From the NCBI RefSeq assembly GCF_007748115.1, contig NZ_CP036289.1:186001-250000 (forward strand): 64,000 nucleotides of DNA, read 5' to 3'. The DNA is from Bremerella volcania (GTDB taxonomy: Bacteria; Planctomycetota; Planctomycetia; Pirellulales; Pirellulaceae). Positions 1-12,808 of the stretch are shown one piece after another. The position numbers were made by a program, and so were the translations under genes. The notes under the pieces were generated by a model. That model was not told the origin of the DNA. It was given only the letters and a program-made list of their open reading frames with translations, and searched no databases. How positions within the stretch are numbered: position 1 is the stretch's first letter; every line of letters begins with the position of its first letter.

Positions 1-2738
1 TCCAGGAAGATTTCGCCGGTTTTCGCATTCCCGAACAGGCCAGGGCTGCCGGTTGTGTTGGGGACGTCGTCGACGACTTCCACCATCCACGCTTCCGGTT
101 CGGCCTCGTCCTTCTTCCAGGCTTTGCCTTGGGCCTTGGCGGTGCCATCATCCTGGTTGGAAACCTTTAACTTCAGGTGATACCATACGTTGGGTTCCAA
201 CTTGAAGTCGACATCCTGGGCGATACGCTGCTGGGTGATCCAAGTCAAAGCACGGGCCTTCGACTCGTTGCCCATCAAGATGAACTCGTAACCTTGGGCA
301 ATCAGGCCAATATCGGGAAGCTGACCTTCCAACTCTTGAGCCATCACGTCCGCTTCGATCGTGTAGTCGTGCAGGTCGGTGTGTCCCATCCACGACTGGC
401 TGCGGGTACCCTTGGGAATGGTCGTGATTTTGACCATAACCTTATTGCCATCTTCTTCACGCACGACGTGACGATAGCGGGCACCTACCCAGGTGATCGG
501 AGGTTCGCCTTTGCCGGTCTTCTCGTCGATGGCGATGCCGTCGAAGTCGAAGCTCCACGGCAACGGCGGAACGATTCGCAGGCGAGCATTCCCAGTCAAG
601 CCGTCAGCTTTCGCCGTGACGTATGCCGGAGCATGGCCGGCATCTTCGTTGGCCGTCAGCTTGCCGGAATCATCGATCTTGGCGGGACCTTCGACGCTAT
701 ATTCAACCGACTCGGCGTCCTTGACGAACTGACCACGCGAGTTGAAAAGCTTGACGCGGTAGTCGACTTCGGCACCCGGATAGATCAGCGTTTCGGCCGG
801 AATGACTTGGACGTGAGCCGGTTTCGGATCGTCGGATACCGGGGCTTCTTGCGGTTGTTCAGGCAGACCACTGAAGCCGGTTTCCTTGCCGTCTTGATTA
901 CCAACGCAGTACAGGGCGGTGGTCGTTGGGAAGTAGATACGTCCGTGGGCACAGATCGGCGAACCAAGTGCGTCCCCTTCAGGCAGGCGACCCTTGGTCA
1001 GGATATCGACGTTGCCGTCCTCTTGAATGCCCAGCACGTAGTAGCGGCCATTCTCGGTGATGGTGTAGATCTTGCCATCGGCGTACAGCGGCGAGGCGAA
1101 CATCTTAGTCCCCAGCGGGGTCTTCTTGAAGAGTTCTTCGCCCGTCTTCGGATCGAGCACGAACAGCTTGGCCCGGTCGTCGATGACGTACAGCTTATCG
1201 TTGACGTACAGCGGAGCGCTGCGGTTGCCGTTCAGTTCGACGACCTTCCAGTTCTGCCCACTCACCGAGATGTCGCCGGACTGGGTCGCGTCGACCGAAA
1301 CGACCGCGCCCATGGTGTTGTCGACGTCGATGACGATCTTGCCGTCGACTTCTTTCGTCTGGACGTTTTCTTCGCCTTGGGCCATGAAGACAGTGTCCCC
1401 TTCAATGATCGGGGTACCGTACAAACCGCGAGCCGCGAACGCGAAGCTCCAGTTGTGCTGGCCGGTGCGAGGTTGAATGCTCCAGATCTTGCCGTCGCCA
1501 GCACCGATCACGTACTGTGGAATGCCGTTAACGATCTTGATGCTGGGTGCACTGTAGGTCGTGTCGTAGGGGAGGGGAGTCGTTTCAGTAAACCAGACGA
1601 CTTCGCCAGTTTCCTTATTCATGCCCAAGAAGCGGTGCGCTGGCTTGGCCATGTCACCCCAGCCGATCACGATGCCGCTGATGATCACCAAGTCTTCGTA
1701 AACGATAGGGAAGTTGGTTCGGCCACCGTAGGTGGTCAGCATGCCGAACTCTTCGTGCATCTTGCGAAGCCAAACCGTTTTGCCGGTGTCGGCGTCGATG
1801 CATTGGAAGTGGCCTGCGACGCCCAGGGCGAAGACGGTGTTCGTTTCGGGGTCTGCCGTCACGGCCGACCAGCCAACGCGTTCGACCGGAACGTCCGAGA
1901 GATAAACGTTGAAGCGGTTTTCCCAGATCGTGTCGCCGGTCTTGGCGTCGACGCAGACGACGCGTTCCCCTTCCCGAGGCGTGCCTTGTTCGGCGGCGGC
2001 CAGCACGAACAGCTTGCCGTTCATCACCACCGGCGTGCTGCGGGTACCCAGGTCGTCGCGTTTCCAAAGGACGTTACTCCCTTCGCCCCCTTCGGGGTTC
2101 CAGGTATCCGGCAGGCCTGTTGCGCGGCTGATGCCGTTGAACTCAGGACCACGCCAGTAGAGCCAGTCTTGCGGATCGGCTGGGCTTTCGCTGGACGAAG
2201 CAGCAGTGGTCGTCTTCTTGGCGGAGGCGACTTCCACGACCGGAGCTTCCTTCTTGGTCATTTCCTCGGCAGCAGGTTTCTCTGCGTTGGTTTCTGCCGG
2301 GGCTTCTTCTTTGACCGCTTCTTCCTTCATCGCGGCATCAGCAGGCGTGTCGGTTGCCATCGGAGGCGTGAGTTGTTCACTGTTCTTAGCCGGAGTCGTT
2401 TCGACGGAATCGACGAGCGTCTTGCCAGGCTTCTCGTCGGGCGTGACAACCGGATTCAGTTCTTCGCTCGTCTTGGCCGGAACGACTTTCGACTCTTCAA
2501 CGGCTTCTTTCGTTTCGTCGACTGGCACTTCGTCTGGGCCAGGCAATTTCGACGGAGTCGTTGCGTTCGTGCTAGGAACCGTGGTGTTGGGATTCGGATT
2601 GAGCGTTGTGTTGTTCGTGGATGGACGCCCGGTCGGAGGTGGCGTGCAGCCAATCGTCAGGAGGGACAGCGAGAGGATGAATACCAACGTTGCCGAGGCC
2701 ACCGTTGGATGGAGCCGATGTGCATAGGGCCGGAACAT
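1..2738 (-). CDS. PQQ-like beta-propeller lipoprotein (3' end outside window)
   Basis: The minus frame from ATG at 2738 stays open to the window edge, giving 912 codons without a stop. The N-terminus has a hydrophobic stretch ending in a lipobox (LTIGC, Cys about residue 31), so an exported lipoprotein is expected. Residues about 32-190 are low-complexity Pro/Thr/Glu/Ala-rich linker. Then comes DWLYWRGPEFNG, the WRGP entry motif common in planctomycete PQQ-like propellers, followed by blade-type repeats (VVCVDAKTGDTIWENR, QCIDADTGKTVWLRK, LFVLDPKTGEELFKK). After the propeller there is an Ig-like/beta segment and a C-terminal region resembling a concanavalin/DUF1080-like fold (DYTIEADVM). Family knowledge: such proteins are periplasmic or surface scaffolds or dehydrogenase-like; no substrate can be assigned. 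A plus-strand open frame across this region is its shadow. Confidence 0.88.
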   Translation of the reverse strand, partial: MFRPYAHRLHPTVASATLVFILSLSLLTIGCTPPPTGRPSTNNTTLNPNPNTTVPSTNATTPSKLPGPDEVPVDETKEAVEESKVVPAKTSEELNPVVTPDEKPGKTLVDSVETTPAKNSEQLTPPMATDTPADAAMKEEAVKEEAPAETNAEKPAAEEMTKKEAPVVEVASAKKTTTAASSSESPADPQDWLYWRGPEFNGISRATGLPDTWNPEGGEGSNVLWKRDDLGTRSTPVVMNGKLFVLAAAEQGTPREGERVVCVDAKTGDTIWENRFNVYLSDVPVERVGWSAVTADPETNTVFALGVAGHFQCIDADTGKTVWLRKMHEEFGMLTTYGGRTNFPIVYEDLVIISGIVIGWGDMAKPAHRFLGMNKETGEVVWFTETTPLPYDTTYSAPSIKIVNGIPQYVIGAGDGKIWSIQPRTGQHNWSFAFAARGLYGTPIIEGDTVFMAQGEENVQTKEVDGKIVIDVDNTMGAVVSVDATQSGDISVSGQNWKVVELNGNRSAPLYVNDKLYVIDDRAKLFVLDPKTGEELFKKTPLGTKMFASPLYADGKIYTITENGRYYVLGIQEDGNVDILTKGRLPEGDALGSPICAHGRIYFPTTTALYCVGNQDGKETGFSGLPEQPQEAPVSDDPKPAHVQVIPAETLIYPGAEVDYRVKLFNSRGQFVKDAESVEYSVEGPAKIDDSGKLTANEDAGHAPAYVTAKADGLTGNARLRIVPPLPWSFDFDGIAIDEKTGKGEPPITWVGARYRHVVREEDGNKVMVKITTIPKGTRSQSWMGHTDLHDYTIEADVMAQELEGQLPDIGLIAQGYEFILMGNESKARALTWITQQRIAQDVDFKLEPNVWYHLKLKVSNQDDGTAKAQGKAWKKDEAEPEAWMVEVVDDVPNTTGSPGLFGNAKTGEIFL

Positions 2739-2998: not shown

Positions 2999-3070
2999 AG
3001 CCATTCATCTCACTCATGATCGCGGTAGCTAACTTCTGTTGTATCAGGCACTAGCGGCCACCGACGGGGA

Positions 3071-3436
3071 TTAGTCGAACCATTCGTCTTCGGGGTCGAA
3101 CTTGGGATAGACGATGTTCACAATCTTCATTTTTCCCAGGGCTCGGTGACGTGTGCCGGGTCGAATCATGATGCACATCCCGGGGTGCACGGGAATCATC
3201 TCATCGTCGAGTTGCATCTGGGCATCCTCGCCGCACTCGAGAAAGAAGTAGGTCTCGGTCAGCTTCTTATGGTAGTGGACTTTGGCATCGGTTGAGATCT
3301 CGGTGACGTGAATTGTCCCGGGGTAATCATCCACGTCGGCCAGACCGCGCTTGGCGGTTCCGCAGGGGCAAGGGACGCCTGGGATGTTGGCGAAATCGAC
3401 GACTTCATATCCCTTGGTCGATGGGGTCGAGGTCAT
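3071..3436 (-). CDS. Small cupin-domain protein
   Basis: 121 aa, ATG at 3436, TAA at 3071-3073. Single cupin barrel: motif 1 region around HVTEISTDAKVHYHKKLTE (metal-ligand type His/Glu) and motif 2 around PGMCIMIRPGTRHRALG (PG...H). No signal peptide, so cytoplasmic. Family knowledge: single-domain cupins of this size are metal-binding sugar isomerases, dioxygenases or ligand sensors; the substrate cannot be told. CPCG near residue 25 is an additional cysteine pair. Monocistronic. Confidence 0.85.
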   Translation of the reverse strand: MTSTPSTKGYEVVDFANIPGVPCPCGTAKRGLADVDDYPGTIHVTEISTDAKVHYHKKLTETYFFLECGEDAQMQLDDEMIPVHPGMCIMIRPGTRHRALGKMKIVNIVYPKFDPEDEWFD

Positions 3437-4069
3437 ACTGCCTCCGATGTGTGGCGGGCTGAAAGAGGAAATTTGGATGCGTTATGCCGCATATTCTACC
3501 TGCCACGTGGATGAGGGGCTACCGATAGCATTGCGTTAAGCTGTAGCGATTAGTGGCGACCTTTCAGGTTCGGTTGGCAAGCTGTAGCGACTGGCTCGCG
3601 TGAATAACCGTTAAGGTTTACCTGTCTTCCGTGGTGGGAAAAGTTCGTGCAATCGAAGATGTAAACCAAGTAGCTGAAATTGGTTCTGAGCGATCAAGCC
3701 TGCCTAGTCTTTCCGCCGATACCGATTTCCAGACATACCTGCACGAGGTGTCTATCAAACGGAATTCCCTCTGGCGGATCATGAGGGGCTGTCAAGTTTC
3801 GATGGGGAACATTCGGGTCAAGGATTGGCTCGACGGAACTTAGACAGAGGACTGTGGAGACGAAAGAAACCAAGAAGCTTTGCTCAATAGGTTCGACTAC
3901 ACGCTCAAACTTCCGAGGCCATGTTGTCCAACCCGCCATAAGGACAGCCCCAGAGGTGCGAGCAATCGCGGCGTGGTAGTCGCATACCGTGATTGTTCAC
4001 GAGAGCGCCGGCCTGGCGACAAAGAATATTGGGATCTGGAAGTCACCACTCAGAAGGAGAAATGACTCG
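3437..4069. other. Intergenic stretch without a supported gene
   Basis: About 630 bp between divergent genes. Short open frames on both strands (for example 3631-3843 plus and 3694-3939 minus) have no recognisable family and contradict each other. A 12-nt direct repeat AAGCTGTAGCGA occurs at 3538-3549 and 3579-3590. It presumably carries the promoters for both flanking genes, but no convincing hexamer pair stands out. Confidence 0.5.
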
Positions 4070-4954
4070 ATGAAATGGAACACTCTTTTGGCAACGCTGG
4101 TGCTCGCGTTTGTGTGTAGCCAAGCGAATGCCGCGGGACTTCTGAACCAAATGCTGGGAACCGGCTGCGGTTGCGATACGTCCTGCTGTCAAACCCCGAA
4201 ATGCTGCTCGCCTAAGCCGCGCTGCTGCATGCCAAAGCCGACCTGCTGTGCTCCGGTAGCCGCTACTTGCTGTGCTCCGGAACCAACCTGCTGTGCTCCA
4301 GAAGCTTGCGGATGTGCTCCAGAAGCCACCTGTGCTGCTCCTGAAGCTTGCGGTTGTGCCCCTGAAGCTTCGTGCTGTGCTCCTGAGCCCAGCTGTGCTG
4401 CTCCTTGCGGATGTGCCACCAGCTGCTGCAAGAAGAAGTGCTGCACTCCGCTGAAGGACGCTCTGAACAACCTGTTCTGCTGCAAGAAGTCTTGCTGCAA
4501 GAAGAGCTGTGGTTCGAGCTGTGGCTGTGGCGCTCCAGAAGCTTCGTGCTGTGCACCTGAAGCTACCTGTGCCGCTCCTGAAGCTTGTGGTTGCGACAGC
4601 GGTTGCGGTTGCGAACCAACCTGCGGCGCTCCAGCTTGCGGTTCGTGCTGCAAGAAGAGCTGCAGCCTGTTCGCTGGCAAGTGCGGCTGCAAGAAGAGCT
4701 GCACCCCGCTGAAGGACGCCATCGCTCGCTTGTTCTGCGTCAGCTGCTGCAAGAGCAGCTGCGGATGTGACACCGGTTGCGGTTGCGACGCTGGTTGCGA
4801 CAGCTGCGGTTCGTCGTGCGGTTGCGGTGCAACCTACTCGGCTCCAGTTGAAGCTGGTACTCCAACCGAAGCTGACATGATGCCACCGGCTCCAGTTCCG
4901 GCTGACACCATGACCTTCGTTCCAGCTCGCCGTCGTCTGGCTTCGGCTCGCTAA
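4070..4954 (+). CDS. Exported, extremely cysteine-rich repeat protein
   Basis: 294 aa from ATG at 4070; GAAGGAG lies about 11 nt upstream, and the longer in-frame start at 3989 would bury the signal peptide. Residues 1-22 form a Sec signal peptide (MKWNTLLATLVLAF..., AxA-like cleavage at ANA/A). The mature part has about 60 Cys, roughly one residue in five. Two repeat styles are visible: short CCAPE(A/P)xC(GC)APEA units (about residues 55-125 and 160-190), and a longer unit with CTPLKDA, a hydrophobic LF, then CC(K)KSC, seen twice (about 125-150 and 205-240). The last 40 residues are Pro-rich and Cys-free, ending RRRLASAR. Monocistronic, followed by a strong terminator. No family recognised. 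Disulfide cross-linking in the cell wall or metal binding are inferences. Confidence 0.85.
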   Translation: MKWNTLLATLVLAFVCSQANAAGLLNQMLGTGCGCDTSCCQTPKCCSPKPRCCMPKPTCCAPVAATCCAPEPTCCAPEACGCAPEATCAAPEACGCAPEASCCAPEPSCAAPCGCATSCCKKKCCTPLKDALNNLFCCKKSCCKKSCGSSCGCGAPEASCCAPEATCAAPEACGCDSGCGCEPTCGAPACGSCCKKSCSLFAGKCGCKKSCTPLKDAIARLFCVSCCKSSCGCDTGCGCDAGCDSCGSSCGCGATYSAPVEAGTPTEADMMPPAPVPADTMTFVPARRRLASAR

Positions 4955-4978
4955 GCCTAGCGAAGACAGCGTGAATAC

Positions 4979-5015
4979 AAAAAGCCTGGTTGGGGAAACT
5001 CAACCAGGCTTTTTT
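4979..5015 (+). terminator. Rho-independent terminator after the Cys-rich gene
   Basis: Arms AAAAAGCCTGGTTG (4979-4992) and CAACCAGGCTTTTT (5001-5014) are perfect complements with an 8-nt loop and a T-run. It starts 24 bp after the stop codon at 4954. Confidence 0.93.
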
Positions 5016-5030
5016 ATGCGCGCTGCCAAT

Positions 5031-5060
5031 CTTGTCCCCTCGCCCTTTCAGGGCTAGGAG
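5031..5060 (-). repeat. CCCCTC/AGCCCT intergenic element, copy A
   Basis: Read on the minus strand this is CTCCTAGCCCT, then a short GAAA loop, then AGGGCGAGGGGACAAG. The same order (CCTAGCCCT, loop, GGGGCGAGGGGACAAGA) is present at 37199-37240, and a diverged form at 59504-59546. Confidence 0.7.
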
Positions 5061-5077
5061 TGTCGATGCTCTCGCAA

Positions 5078-5100
5078 TTGGGTTACGCAGGGTAACCCAA
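5078..5100. repeat. Perfect 9-bp inverted repeat
   Basis: TTGGGTTAC (5078-5086), loop GCAGG, GTAACCCAA (5092-5100). It lies between two convergent genes and has no T-run, so it is not a standard terminator. Function unknown. Confidence 0.55.
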
Positions 5101-5120
5101 GGGAACTCCTCTGGGACTAC

Positions 5121-5158
5121 GCAAACAAAAGCGACTACGTCCGGAAAGACGTAGCCGC
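5121..5158 (-). terminator. Terminator of the sulfatase gene
   Basis: Arms GCGACTACGTC (5131-5141) and GACGTAGCCGC (5148-5158), one mismatch. On the minus strand the stem is followed by TTTTGTTTGC. It lies about 28 bp past the sulfatase stop. Confidence 0.8.
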
Positions 5159-5185
5159 TCGTTAAAAGTTCGCTCAGTTGATGCT

Positions 5186-6715
5186 TTAGTACTTGCCACC
5201 TTCGCGCGGCGTGTCGTCCTTGTACTTCTCGCGAAGCTCTTTCAGTTTCTCGTGCATCTTGGCTTGCACCTCGGCGTACTCCGGCTTGCCGTAAACGCTG
5301 TTCATTTCGCTGGGGTCTTCCTGCAGATCGAACAGCTCCCATTCGCCCAGTTGATAGTAATGGATCAACTTGTAGCGGCCGTCGAACACGCCGTAGTGCC
5401 GCGGCACGCTATGAGCGCCGGGGAATTCGTAGTAGTGGTAGTACAGTTCCTTGCGCGGCCAGTCCTTGGGAGTCTTGCCGTCGTTTTCCAAGATCGGCAA
5501 CAGGCTGAGCCCTTGCATGTCGCTGGGAATCTCCACGCCAGCGGCGGCGAGCATCGTTTCGGGGAAGTCGAGATTCATCACCAGCGCGTCGCTGACGGTC
5601 CCTGGTTTGACGTGGCCAGGCCAACGAACCAAGAGCGGCGTGCGGAACGATTCTTCGTACATCCAACGCTTGTCAAACCAGCCATGCTCTCCCAGGTAAA
5701 AACCTTGGTCCGAACTGTAAATGACCAGCGTGTTTTCCGACAGGCCCGTTTCATCCAGGTAGTCCAGTACCTGGCCGACCCCTTCGTCGACCGAGTCGAT
5801 GCAGCGGAGGTAGTCCTTGATGTAGCGTTGGAACTTCCAACGCGTCAGTTCCTTGCCTTCCAGCTTGGCATCTTCGAACGCCTTGTTCTTCGGGCCGTAG
5901 GCGGCGTCCCACACCTTTCGCTGCTCAGGCGTTAGACCGCGTTGCGTGGCAACCTTCAAGTCGTGCATGTTCATCGTTTTCGCGATGGTCATGTCCTGGT
6001 CGCGGGCACCACTGGCACGATTCTTATAGTCGTCCCACATGTTGGCAGGCTCTTCGAAGGTGACGTCGTTGTACTTGTTCAAATACTTCGGAGCCGGCAT
6101 CCAGTTGCGATGGGGTGCTTTGTGTTGGTACATCAGCAGAAACGGCTTGTTGGGATCGCGTTTCTCTTGCAGCCACTCCATGGCGATGTCGGTGATGATC
6201 TCGCTGGTGTGCCCTTCGTAGTTCTTCATGCCGTCCGAAGTACGCATCTTGGGGTTGTAGTAAGGACCCTGGCCTTGCAGAACGTTGAAGTAGTCGAAGC
6301 CGGTCGGTTCTGATCCCAAGTGCCACTTGCCAATAATGGCGGTCTGGTAGCCTGCTTTCTGCAACAGCTTGGGATACGTTTGCTGGCTTCCGTCGAAACG
6401 TGGCGTTTTGTTGTCGTAGAAACCGTTCAAGTGGCTGTACTTACCGGTCAGAATCACGGCCCGAGCGGGTCCACAGATGCTGTTGGTCACGTAGCAGTGA
6501 TCGAAACGCATTCCGTCTTTGGCGATGCGATCGATGTTGGGTGTCTGGTTGATCGCACCAGGGTAGGCCGAAATTGCCTGAAACGCGTGATCGTCGGACA
6601 TCATGAAGACGATGTTCGGCTTCTTGTCGGCTGCCTGCACGCTGCGATTGAGCCACGGGACGAGTGTCACCGCGATCAGAAAGAGGGGAAGAGAGTACCG
6701 AAATAAGTAGGTCAT
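5186..6715 (-). CDS. Secreted sulfatase (type I, formylglycine-dependent)
   Basis: 509 aa from ATG at 6715, chosen because a clean signal peptide follows ([16 protein letters not shown]...VQAA); an upstream in-frame ATG at 6793 would precede it. Metal ligands DD at 41-42 ([10 protein letters not shown]). The CxPxR catalytic motif is C81-G-P-A-R with a downstream LTGK, where Cys becomes formylglycine. A second metal site is [14 protein letters not shown]-terminal DUF4976-like tail ends the protein, usual length for the family. Family knowledge: hydrolyses sulfate esters of carbohydrates in the periplasm. The [12 protein letters not shown] segment recalls GlcNAc-6-sulfatase-type enzymes, but the substrate is not assignable. 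The next gene upstream encodes an FGE-fold protein. Confidence 0.93.
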
Positions 6716-10818: not shown

Positions 10819-12495
10819 TTAGTTGCCGAACGGATCGGCAGCGGGCTCGCTGGTACCAAATGGATCGTTCGATGGAGCCGGGGCCGCACCGAATGGATCG
10901 TCGCTTGGCTGGGGCATCGGCTTTGGAGCTGGTGCCTCGCCAAATGGGTCGGCAGCTGGCTGCTCGGTGGCCGGAGCGGCTCCGAATGGGTCATTGCCTG
11001 CAGGGGGCGCCGCGCCGAATGGGTCGTTCGAAGGCTGCTTCATCTCGGGCATCGGTTCCGCACCAAAGGGATCGTCACTGGGAACCGTGTTCGAGGGAGC
11101 GGCGGAAGGGACACCGAACGGTTGTTCGTTCGTGCTCGGGTCGTTACCGAACGGATCGGCGCCCGGAGCTGGCTGAGCGCCAAATGGATCGTCGTCGGCT
11201 GGCATCGCACCCGGTTGGGATGCACCAGACGGAGGTCCCATGCCAGGCACCGAAGGAACTTTCACACTCGGAATCAACGCACTTCCCAGAGCACCAAACG
11301 CAGCGGAAACGGGATTCGGTTTGCTCTCGGTGGTTGCCGCACCCGCACCTGGGGCTGGTGCTGCCCCAAACGGATCGGTATCGGTCGGTGCGGCCATTGG
11401 ACTGGCCGGAGCGGGATTCGTGGCCGATCCTGGAGGGGACGTGCCACCAAACGGATCTGTGGTCATTTCGGGTTCCGATGGACTGGGCATCGGAGCGGCA
11501 CCAAATGGATCGTCCGAAGGTGCCGGAGCGGCGCCGAATGGATCGTCGGTCGGGGTGGTCGGAGCCCCGAACGGATCGGTATCAGTCGGTGCTGCCATCG
11601 GGCTGGCCGGAGCTGGGTTGGTGGCCGATCCTGGAGGGGAGGTGCCACCAAACGGATCTGTGGTCATTTCGGGCTCTGAAGGACTGGGCATCGGCGCGGC
11701 ACCAAATGGATCGTCGCTAGGCGTAGTGGCCGATGGGGCCGGTGCGGCACCAAACGGATCGTCGGTCGGGGTGGTCGGAGCGCCAAACGGATCGGTATCG
11801 GTCGGTGCGGCCATCGGGCTGGCCGGAGCTGGGTTGGTGGCCGATCCTGGAGGGGACGTGCCACCGAATGGATCTTCCGTCATTTCAGGTTCGGTCGGAC
11901 TGGGTTGAACGATCGGATCAGGCGTCATCGGAGTGGTCGCTGCGCCTGGCGAGCCGAATGGATCAGTTTCGTCCTCGGAGGGAACCGGAACCGATGGCTG
12001 CGTCGAGCTGGTGCGTTGTTGGCGATCTCGCAGAACTTCATCTTCGGCTCGCTTAAGGGCTTCGTAGCGTGCTCGTTCGCGTTCCTTCTTTTTCAGGTAG
12101 ACCTCCGTACGCACTTTGTCGCGGTAGTCTTCCAGCATGATTCGCTCGGAACCCTGGACGCGTTCGAGTGCCTTGCCCACGGGATAGACCTGACTGCGAT
12201 CGAGTTCCAACTCAGCACCCTTGGTGAAGTCGGCTTGTGCCTGGTCGGTGTTGCCAAGCTTGTAGTTGGCCAGACCCATGAAGTAATAGACACGCGGATC
12301 ATTGGTGCCTTCGGCGAGGACGGCTCCAAGAAGCTTTTCTGCTTCCAGATAGTCGCCTCGGTTGTACGCGTGCACACCGCGACCATACAAATCGACAAGA
12401 ACGGTGTCTTGAGCCGCTGCCTCTTGGGTCGTGCATGCAGTCAGAAGCAGGCTCAGGCAGGACAATAGCCCGCAGGCGATAACGTTCCTCGTCAT
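10819..12495 (-). CDS. TPR lipoprotein with about 20 DPFG repeats
   Basis: 558 aa from ATG at 12495; a TTG one codon upstream is also possible, and GGGAG lies about 10 nt before. Lipoprotein signal: LSCLSLLLTAC with the lipobox Cys near residue 21. Residues about 35-110 are two TPR-like helices pairs (GRGVHAYNRGDYLEAEKLLGA, VYYFMGLANYKLGNTDQA). A charged helical stretch about 125-160 (YLKKKERERARYEALK) is likely coiled coil. From about 180 to the end it is Pro/Ala/Thr-rich, with 20 copies of DPFG plus one QPFG, ending ADPFGN. Part of this region is a larger tandem repeat. Predicted outer/inner membrane-anchored scaffold; the repeats may be short linear binding motifs. No close family recognised beyond TPR. 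Confidence 0.85.
   Translation of the reverse strand: MTRNVIACGLLSCLSLLLTACTTQEAAAQDTVLVDLYGRGVHAYNRGDYLEAEKLLGAVLAEGTNDPRVYYFMGLANYKLGNTDQAQADFTKGAELELDRSQVYPVGKALERVQGSERIMLEDYRDKVRTEVYLKKKERERARYEALKRAEDEVLRDRQQRTSSTQPSVPVPSEDETDPFGSPGAATTPMTPDPIVQPSPTEPEMTEDPFGGTSPPGSATNPAPASPMAAPTDTDPFGAPTTPTDDPFGAAPAPSATTPSDDPFGAAPMPSPSEPEMTTDPFGGTSPPGSATNPAPASPMAAPTDTDPFGAPTTPTDDPFGAAPAPSDDPFGAAPMPSPSEPEMTTDPFGGTSPPGSATNPAPASPMAAPTDTDPFGAAPAPGAGAATTESKPNPVSAAFGALGSALIPSVKVPSVPGMGPPSGASQPGAMPADDDPFGAQPAPGADPFGNDPSTNEQPFGVPSAAPSNTVPSDDPFGAEPMPEMKQPSNDPFGAAPPAGNDPFGAAPATEQPAADPFGEAPAPKPMPQPSDDPFGAAPAPSNDPFGTSEPAADPFGN
11390..11900 (-). repeat. Tandem long repeats coding the DPFG region
   Basis: Three near-identical blocks start at about 11390, 11590 and 11810 on plus-strand coordinates. 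Each contains GGCCGATCCTGGAGGGGA and the codons for the peptide MTTDPFGGTSPPGSATN-PAPASPMAAPTDTDPFG (one copy has TE/ED variants). Spacing is about 200 and 220 bp, always a multiple that keeps frame. Confidence 0.85.
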
Positions 12496-12808
12496 CAATA
12501 AAAACTCCCTGGTACCGATCGGTTGGCCGCGCTCGAGGGGCGCTTCGTTTATGAGATTTGTTGGGAAGTGGACGTGCTCGTGGGGAAAATGGATTCGACA
12601 GGAGGCAATGATTCAGCTGAATCACGGACCACCTGTCCTTCGTCCTTGAAGAGTACCGCCTGCCACTCGAACGAGGGCAATCGGACCACCGGTTACCGTC
12701 CCTGGAAAAAGAACCACGGCTCACCGGTATCGTAGTTCGGTTGCTCCCAGATTGCAAGTTTTGGAAGCGAACCCGCCCATTTGGGGTAAGTTCTCAGGCG
12801 GTGGGGAC

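Follow-up and report, generated by a model that had tools for sequence, protein, structure and literature searches.

A cysteine-rich, probably exported protein of Bremerella volcania belongs to a widespread gene family with a conserved cysteine-free tail

The window, i.e., the whole stretch of 64,000 nucleotides of Bremerella volcania DNA that was analysed, contains at 4070-4954, on the forward strand, a real reading frame for a Cys-rich protein, which is under purifying selection, with its Cys residues kept more than the others, and which is one gene of a widespread family rather than an isolated gene. The explanation preferred here, to which a probability of roughly 0.55 is given, is that the product would be exported, would stay largely unfolded, and would cross-link the cell envelope through disulfides, in the manner of the keratin-associated proteins or of chlamydial OmcA/OmcB, with the location and the disulfides both presumed. 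The features of the gene and its protein are the following, in the numbering of the window:

4070..4954, forward strand: gene of the Cys-rich, probably exported protein, 294 aa and stop (ORF, Cys count, congener alignment)
4070..4135, forward strand: signal-like N-terminus MKWNTLLATLVLAFVCSQANAA, residues 1-22 (read by eye in the sequence itself and in 29 members)
4139..4159, forward strand: LLNQMLG element, residues 24-30, straight after the signal (member alignments)
4166..4825, forward strand: Cys-rich core, residues 33-252, with 61 Cys in 220 aa (composition; the number of units differs between congeners)
4445..4477, forward strand: putative helix module 1, TPLKDALNNLF, residues 126-136 (member alignments; helix at 127-133 in a low-confidence model)
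4703..4735, forward strand: putative helix module 2, TPLKDAIARLF, residues 212-222 (member alignments; helix at 213-222 in a low-confidence model)
4826..4951, forward strand: Cys-free C-terminal tail with MPPAPVPADTMTFVPARRRL, residues 253-294, 42 residues (tail model, member loci)

The first-pass annotation of this DNA had described a frame with about 60 cysteines, one in about five residues of the mature part, arranged in two types of repeat, and this description is borne out, with exact coordinates. The 294-aa protein has 62 Cys, 61 of which fall within the 272 residues past residue 22 (22%, by composition count), and given that the usual Cys content of proteins is around 1%, this richness is not a matter of chance. 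The repeats consist of CCAPE/CAAPE/CGCAPE-type units, with nine matches to a loose pattern, and a duplicated CTPLKDAxxxLF unit, represented by CTPLKDALNNLF (residues 125-136) and CTPLKDAIARLF (residues 211-222), each of which is followed by Cys clusters. The signal-like N-terminus, as read by eye, agrees with the export that had been proposed, and cleavage would probably occur near ANA. Anchoring through a lipid, as in a lipoprotein, was considered and rejected, given that the lone signal Cys (AFVC) has no lipobox around it and is substituted in several members of the 29-member alignment, in both cases as read by eye.

A helix between the Cys clusters had also been anticipated, and the AlphaFold2 model, built on a 29-row alignment (mean pLDDT 44.8, pTM 0.16), places helices, with very low confidence, at residues 2-28, which cover the signal and LLNQM, and at 127-133 and 213-222, which are the two TPLKDA modules and the sole internal helices predicted. 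The model would agree with a Cys-rich chain that is unfolded except for short helices, but it is taken as a hint only.

The constraint on the gene is apparent from the comparison with eight congeners, in which dN/dS ranges from 0.12 to 0.28, and 428 of the 451 aligned Cys residues are kept, in comparison with 1526 of the 1742 other residues. The ribosome-binding region is also conserved. The first-pass annotation had proposed a check for copies with varying numbers of units, and the congener alignment does indeed reveal units gained and lost within the genus. It had further considered the gene to be possibly highly expressed, which stands in so far as its codon adaptation, of 0.689, falls within the range of 12 ribosomal genes (0.577-0.747, each left out in turn), but this is suggestive only. 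Codon adaptation is a weak proxy for expression here, given that EF-G reaches just 0.568, and that four of the 38 other ORFs in the window (mean 0.584, sd 0.064) exceed the Cys-rich gene; a YTV gene has a value of 0.765.

A search with the single sequence was made in 199 genomes of the same GTDB family, which includes Blastopirellula and, presumably, Rhodopirellula, and returned matches in 73 genomes, representing 37 of the 68 genera, although L030 and some of the other matches are different Cys-rich proteins. Both ends are conserved in the 29-member alignment, with a variable middle, and, besides the N-terminus, the best-conserved part is the Cys-free C-terminal tail, with the consensus PPAPxVDPSAYxPxxRRVVxAS...R. 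A model of this tail only (18 rows, 34 positions) found the tail at E<=0.05 in 150 of the 199 genomes, which represent 56 of the 68 genera, and at E<=0.001 in 144 of the 199; among the 144 better genomes, 117 have a match at E<=0.05. The six matches with E between 0.001 and 0.05 may be due to chance. One match was found in 127 of the 150 genomes, and two in the other 23, with three second matches, among the matches listed, having E values of 0.0058 to 0.0105. A Cys-rich protein is present at each of the 30 best-scoring tail loci, and in all 18 of the larger regions around tail matches, where some of the genomes overlap the 30 best. Another member lies at L143:5986-6831, on the reverse strand, with its tail at G130:C1:4048088-4048186. 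The tail model found no match at E<=0.05 in 49 of the 199 genomes (27 of the 144 better ones), so the Cys-rich protein is not a universal need.

In a sample of the phylum, with 392 genomes, the tail was matched in all ten genomes of the same GTDB family, and weakly (E 1e-5 to 2e-4) in four of the 382 genomes outside it. One of these four, which comes from the same order but a different family (L172, in genome G566), encodes a full-length member, with 63 Cys in frame and the same ends, which means that the gene family extends past the GTDB family.

The anatomy of the family was described from 46 distinct members, among which Blastopirellula marina DSM 3645 (L047) is represented, following the removal of two chance-level matches (L015, L016), three other Cys-rich proteins without the tail (L030, L048, L049), and three entries that were the same protein as another (L046 = L019, L047 = L027, L156 = L033). 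These members have 198-395 aa, with 26-81 Cys after residue 23 and 37-63 terminal Cys-free residues, and their layout is constant, i.e., a signal, an LLxxML-type element, a variable Cys-rich core, at least one LLxxLF-type module, and the tail. The signal-like N-terminus is seen in all 29 of the aligned members, in which L24 and L25 are invariant, but as the starts of these members were set by a pattern that requires the leucine element, independent support for this element comes from the other 17 members only, which all have it even though their starts were set without this requirement. The LLxxLF-type modules are found in all 46 cores, in comparison with the 11.7 expected when each core is shuffled. 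The ranges of length and Cys number, together with the odd number of Cys in 28 of the 46 members, would ill suit a single conserved and closed intramolecular disulfide fold, although, as this proportion is close to half, it cannot tell a network from metal binding.

The first-pass annotation knew of no named family with this layout, and none was found, given that the 294-aa protein returned nothing from Pfam, NCBIfam, or the PDB sequences (0 Pfam families at E<=10), and that none of the 29 members matched a Pfam or NCBIfam model (E<=0.1). The search was not blind to Cys-rich sequences, since a YTV ORF from the same genome, with 63 Cys, scored at once in Pfam (E 3.2e-117, in 10 stretches). The YTV domain (PF07639) and the OmcA/OmcB Pfam models were not matched by the protein (E<=10) or by the 29 members (E<=0.1), nor did either match the metallothionein models of Pfam or NCBIfam.

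One of the closest comparisons is with the YTV cell-wall proteins, which are likewise signal-bearing, Cys-rich, repetitive, and planctomycete-specific, and the protein described here has both the signal (by eye) and the high Cys content of these proteins, in addition to the signal, LLxxML-type element, Cys-rich core with LLxxLF-type module, and PPAP...RR tail of its own family. The absence of the YTV domain sets the family apart, however, and none of the three separate YTV ORFs in the same genome, one of which has 63 Cys, ends in the family tail (by eye). From these sequence comparisons, the proteins appear to constitute, next to YTV, a second family of Cys-rich exported proteins, with no Pfam or NCBIfam model, and this unnamed family is found in about three of every four genomes sampled from the GTDB family, usually as a single copy.

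Cys-rich exported envelope proteins are also known from the same superphylum, in the chlamydial OmcA and OmcB, whose outer-membrane complex is believed, in the portion of the source available, to replace peptidoglycan (PMC2811131). The Cys-rich tail family is set apart from them by description, rather than by aligned sequences, and has no Pfam match in common with them, and no relationship is asserted. The repeats, the LLxxLF-type modules, and the RR tail are not known as features of OmcA or OmcB. The keratin-associated proteins (high-sulfur KAPs), in turn, have CCxPx-type repeats in variable numbers and are cross-linked by disulfides, but they are animal, intracellular proteins, and the likeness to the Cys-rich tail family in the repeats and the variation of the units is accompanied by no Pfam match and is not evidence of a relationship.

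The surroundings of the gene are conserved as well, and comprise the following features:

3071..3436, reverse strand: divergent cupin gene, 121 aa, a conserved neighbour (assigned through the Cupin_2 counterpart in L046)
1..2738, reverse strand: PQQ/BamB-like beta-propeller gene, a conserved neighbour, which extends beyond the window start (assigned through counterparts)
3605..4069, forward strand: long conserved intergenic/leader region of about 460 nt (alignment of upstream sequences)
3815..3831, forward strand: inverted repeat GGGTCAAGGATTGGCTC, about 255 nt before the start, a possible RNA hairpin or operator (pairing kept)
3957..4013, forward strand: block conserved in three genera, GCGA.CA.TCGCGGCGTGG...CCGTGA.TGTTCACG (upstream alignment)
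4980..5015, forward strand: Rho-independent terminator hairpin, with a GAAA loop and a T run (fold test)

A strong terminator had been noted at the outset, and the hairpin withstands the fold test (z -5.48, equalled by none of 200 shuffles), although a simple terminator scanner did not list it. The idea of a stand-alone gene derived from it is valid for the layout, in which the gene lies alone in its transcription unit, but not for the locus, given that the divergent neighbours, which had been overlooked together with the Cys-free tail, are conserved in most of the loci compared. In 21 loci, i.e., the window, L046, L047, and 18 regions from long-contig genomes with tail hits (where the L156 gene is the L033 gene), tblastn found the small divergent cupin upstream of the Cys-rich gene in 16 and the PQQ/BamB-like genes in 14. 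In five loci neither is found upstream, and in one of these five PQQ is matched on the downstream side. The tblastn count for the cupin was used in place of a cluster-based count of 12/21, which had overlooked short cupin ORFs. The cupin counterpart in L046 matches Cupin_2 with E 1.3e-5 and 25.3 bits, which is under the curated cut-off of 27.2, and the propeller counterpart there matches PQQ_2 with E 3.7e-25; the propeller gene of the window is 55% identical to its counterpart in L047. The downstream genes are less constant, with the commonest cluster found in 4 of the 21 loci. The gene, while alone by layout, thus occupies an old place.

The leader at 3605-4069 has blocks conserved in three genera, and its single-base alignment gaps suggest that it is non-coding. 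Of the 15 more distant loci, L031 to L045, 10 have the inverted repeat as well, between roughly -170 and -290, and it is missing from the other five (L035-L038 and L043). It pairs in all 11 distinct sequences, although these had been selected by a pattern that favours pairing, and covariation was not detected in them, as none of the pairs had a change in both of its bases and the score was reached by 179 of 500 shuffles. Few further copies of the motif exist in the genome, namely two at up to two mismatches, versus one for a control pattern. Predicted folding of the leader is not clearly better than that of shuffled sequence (z -1.02 and -1.05), and no RNA element is claimed. A riboswitch was rejected after an Rfam search of the window at 3001-5300 (E<=1) returned just four matches, far under the gathering scores, all of which sit at the gene end or the terminator.

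The main rival to the reading as a disulfide cross-linker, although an unlikely one, is metal binding, in which the protein would be an exported metal-sequestering one, either metallothionein-like in the periplasm or a copper store, with the thiolate clusters of the core binding soft metal ions. A Cys content of 22% past the signal, the Lys residues that adjoin the Cys clusters, the free variation in repeat number, and a divergent neighbour that, being a cupin, is possibly a metal protein would all be compatible with this, as would the 390 CC and 364 CxC neighbours found across the 46 cores. When these neighbouring Cys are set against shuffled expectation, however, CC falls to a fraction of 0.70, CxC to 0.87, and CxxC, a spacing frequently found where metals are bound or redox chemistry takes place, to 0.47, while Cx3C reaches 2.27 and Cx5C 2.53. 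The protein is also probably exported to where thiols tend to oxidise, its relatives lack any match to the known models, as described above, and the few neighbours scanned, a small sample, included no recognisable metal transporter or metal regulator. The depletion of CxxC, which is the usual redox-active pair, also weighs on a very improbable alternative, in which the high thiol content of a probably exported protein would serve as a periplasmic redox buffer, or a sponge for oxidative stress, with cycled thiols, and in which the conserved tail and the helices would be left unexplained. In the plain counts of Cys pairs by distance, the ratios to expectation are 1.43 at 6 residues, 1.25 at 7, and 1.18 at 14, and, as this period of six to seven residues is faint, a strict seven-residue unit is not claimed.

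It is quite unlikely, in turn, that the protein is a surface or holdfast adhesin or a matrix protein, i.e., disulfide-rich secreted material for attachment or for rosettes, rather than for the wall. A sessile, budding life style, the signal, the repeats with a number that varies between species, and the short hydrophobic helices with a conserved tail would be appropriate to such material, while a dispensable trait would be consistent with the 49 genomes, out of 199, in which the tail had no match. The usual single copy, stable tail, and kept neighbourhood look more like those of a household component, on the other hand, and there is no anchoring or adhesion domain that Pfam recognises.

In the case of the envelope disulfide cross-linker, the signal, composition, free Cys number, lack of a predicted fold, and depletion of CxxC together suggest cross-linking by composition. 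The Cys-rich protein would be secreted by means of the signal read from its sequence, its Cys would be oxidised outside the cytoplasm, and the Cys-rich units would then form many inter-molecular disulfides, to give an insoluble mesh, as the keratin-associated proteins do in hair. The short LLxxLF-type helices may be the points at which the chains meet each other or the membrane, and the conserved, Cys-free Pro/Arg tail may be a peptide by which the protein is docked to, or sorted towards, a partner in the envelope. The core itself would work through its composition, and not through any single fixed fold, given that the number and spacing of the Cys are free to vary while the composition and the tail are kept. 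A more specific version, which is doubtful, is that the Pirellulales possess a protein dedicated to scaffolding the envelope through disulfides, usually encoded in a single copy and separate from YTV, with an unfolded core of variable units and a tail that is an address peptide for an envelope partner, perhaps the adjoining PQQ/BamB-like propeller.

The disulfide machinery of the genome is mixed, with a single VKOR match, to an ORF (G000:C1:3324990-3325382, L160) that has one CxxC motif, CFLC, and no match to PF01323 (DSBA) in the genome searched; the disulfide pathway of Bremerella volcania may be unusual.

The integrity of planctomycete cells has long been debated, in terms of a disulfide-rich protein wall, peptidoglycan, or both, and the Cys-rich family adds a concrete gene and protein to this question, with the tail as a handle on the binding partner. 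In the parts of the published sources available, an SDS-resistant protein wall is described in planctomycetes (PMC3422733), as are Cys-rich YTV wall proteins (PMC8567305, PMC5287468), which are major constituents of the SDS-boiled walls of Gemmata (PMC5287468) and the top wall proteins of Tuwongella (PMC8567305), and the genes essential to Planctopirus limnophila include one for a YTV protein (PMC10632474). A niche for Cys-rich envelope proteins therefore exists, and the wall network imagined in the first-pass annotation is plausible by analogy with this literature. The wall proteins named in the portions of the planctomycete papers covered are YTV proteins, and these portions give no account of the Cys-rich tail family and no proteomic, biochemical, or localisation record of any of its members, although the protein may figure under a locus tag in other published work.

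The same genome also encodes small CCAPEP-repeat proteins (around G000:C1:4993102-4993506 and 5003503-5003700), which similarly have a signal-like N-terminus, CCAPEP units, and basic modules that contain LF, but they are shorter, with stricter CCAPEP units and no PPAP...RR tail, and one of them ends in a Pro/Ala/Glu-rich stretch without RR. Their two loci are about 10 kb apart, at L007:7983-8510 (G000:C1:4993 kb), whose protein has no Pfam match, and at L007:18234-18881 (G000:C1:5003 kb). An open frame of 151 codons, with 17 Cys and a signal-like start (L055, G000:C1:4984861), lies near both of these genes, which suggests a cluster of Cys-rich genes at 4.98-5.00 Mb. In another family of the class, two loci (L100 and L102) encode Cys-rich proteins with HEAT-like repeats in mid-protein (by eye) and a PAPPEEPxAYxP-like end, which is perhaps a distant analogue of the tail. 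Within the window itself, a further repeat protein, encoded on the reverse strand at 10819-12498, is rich in DDPFGAAP units and has a lipoprotein-like signal (LLTACTT).
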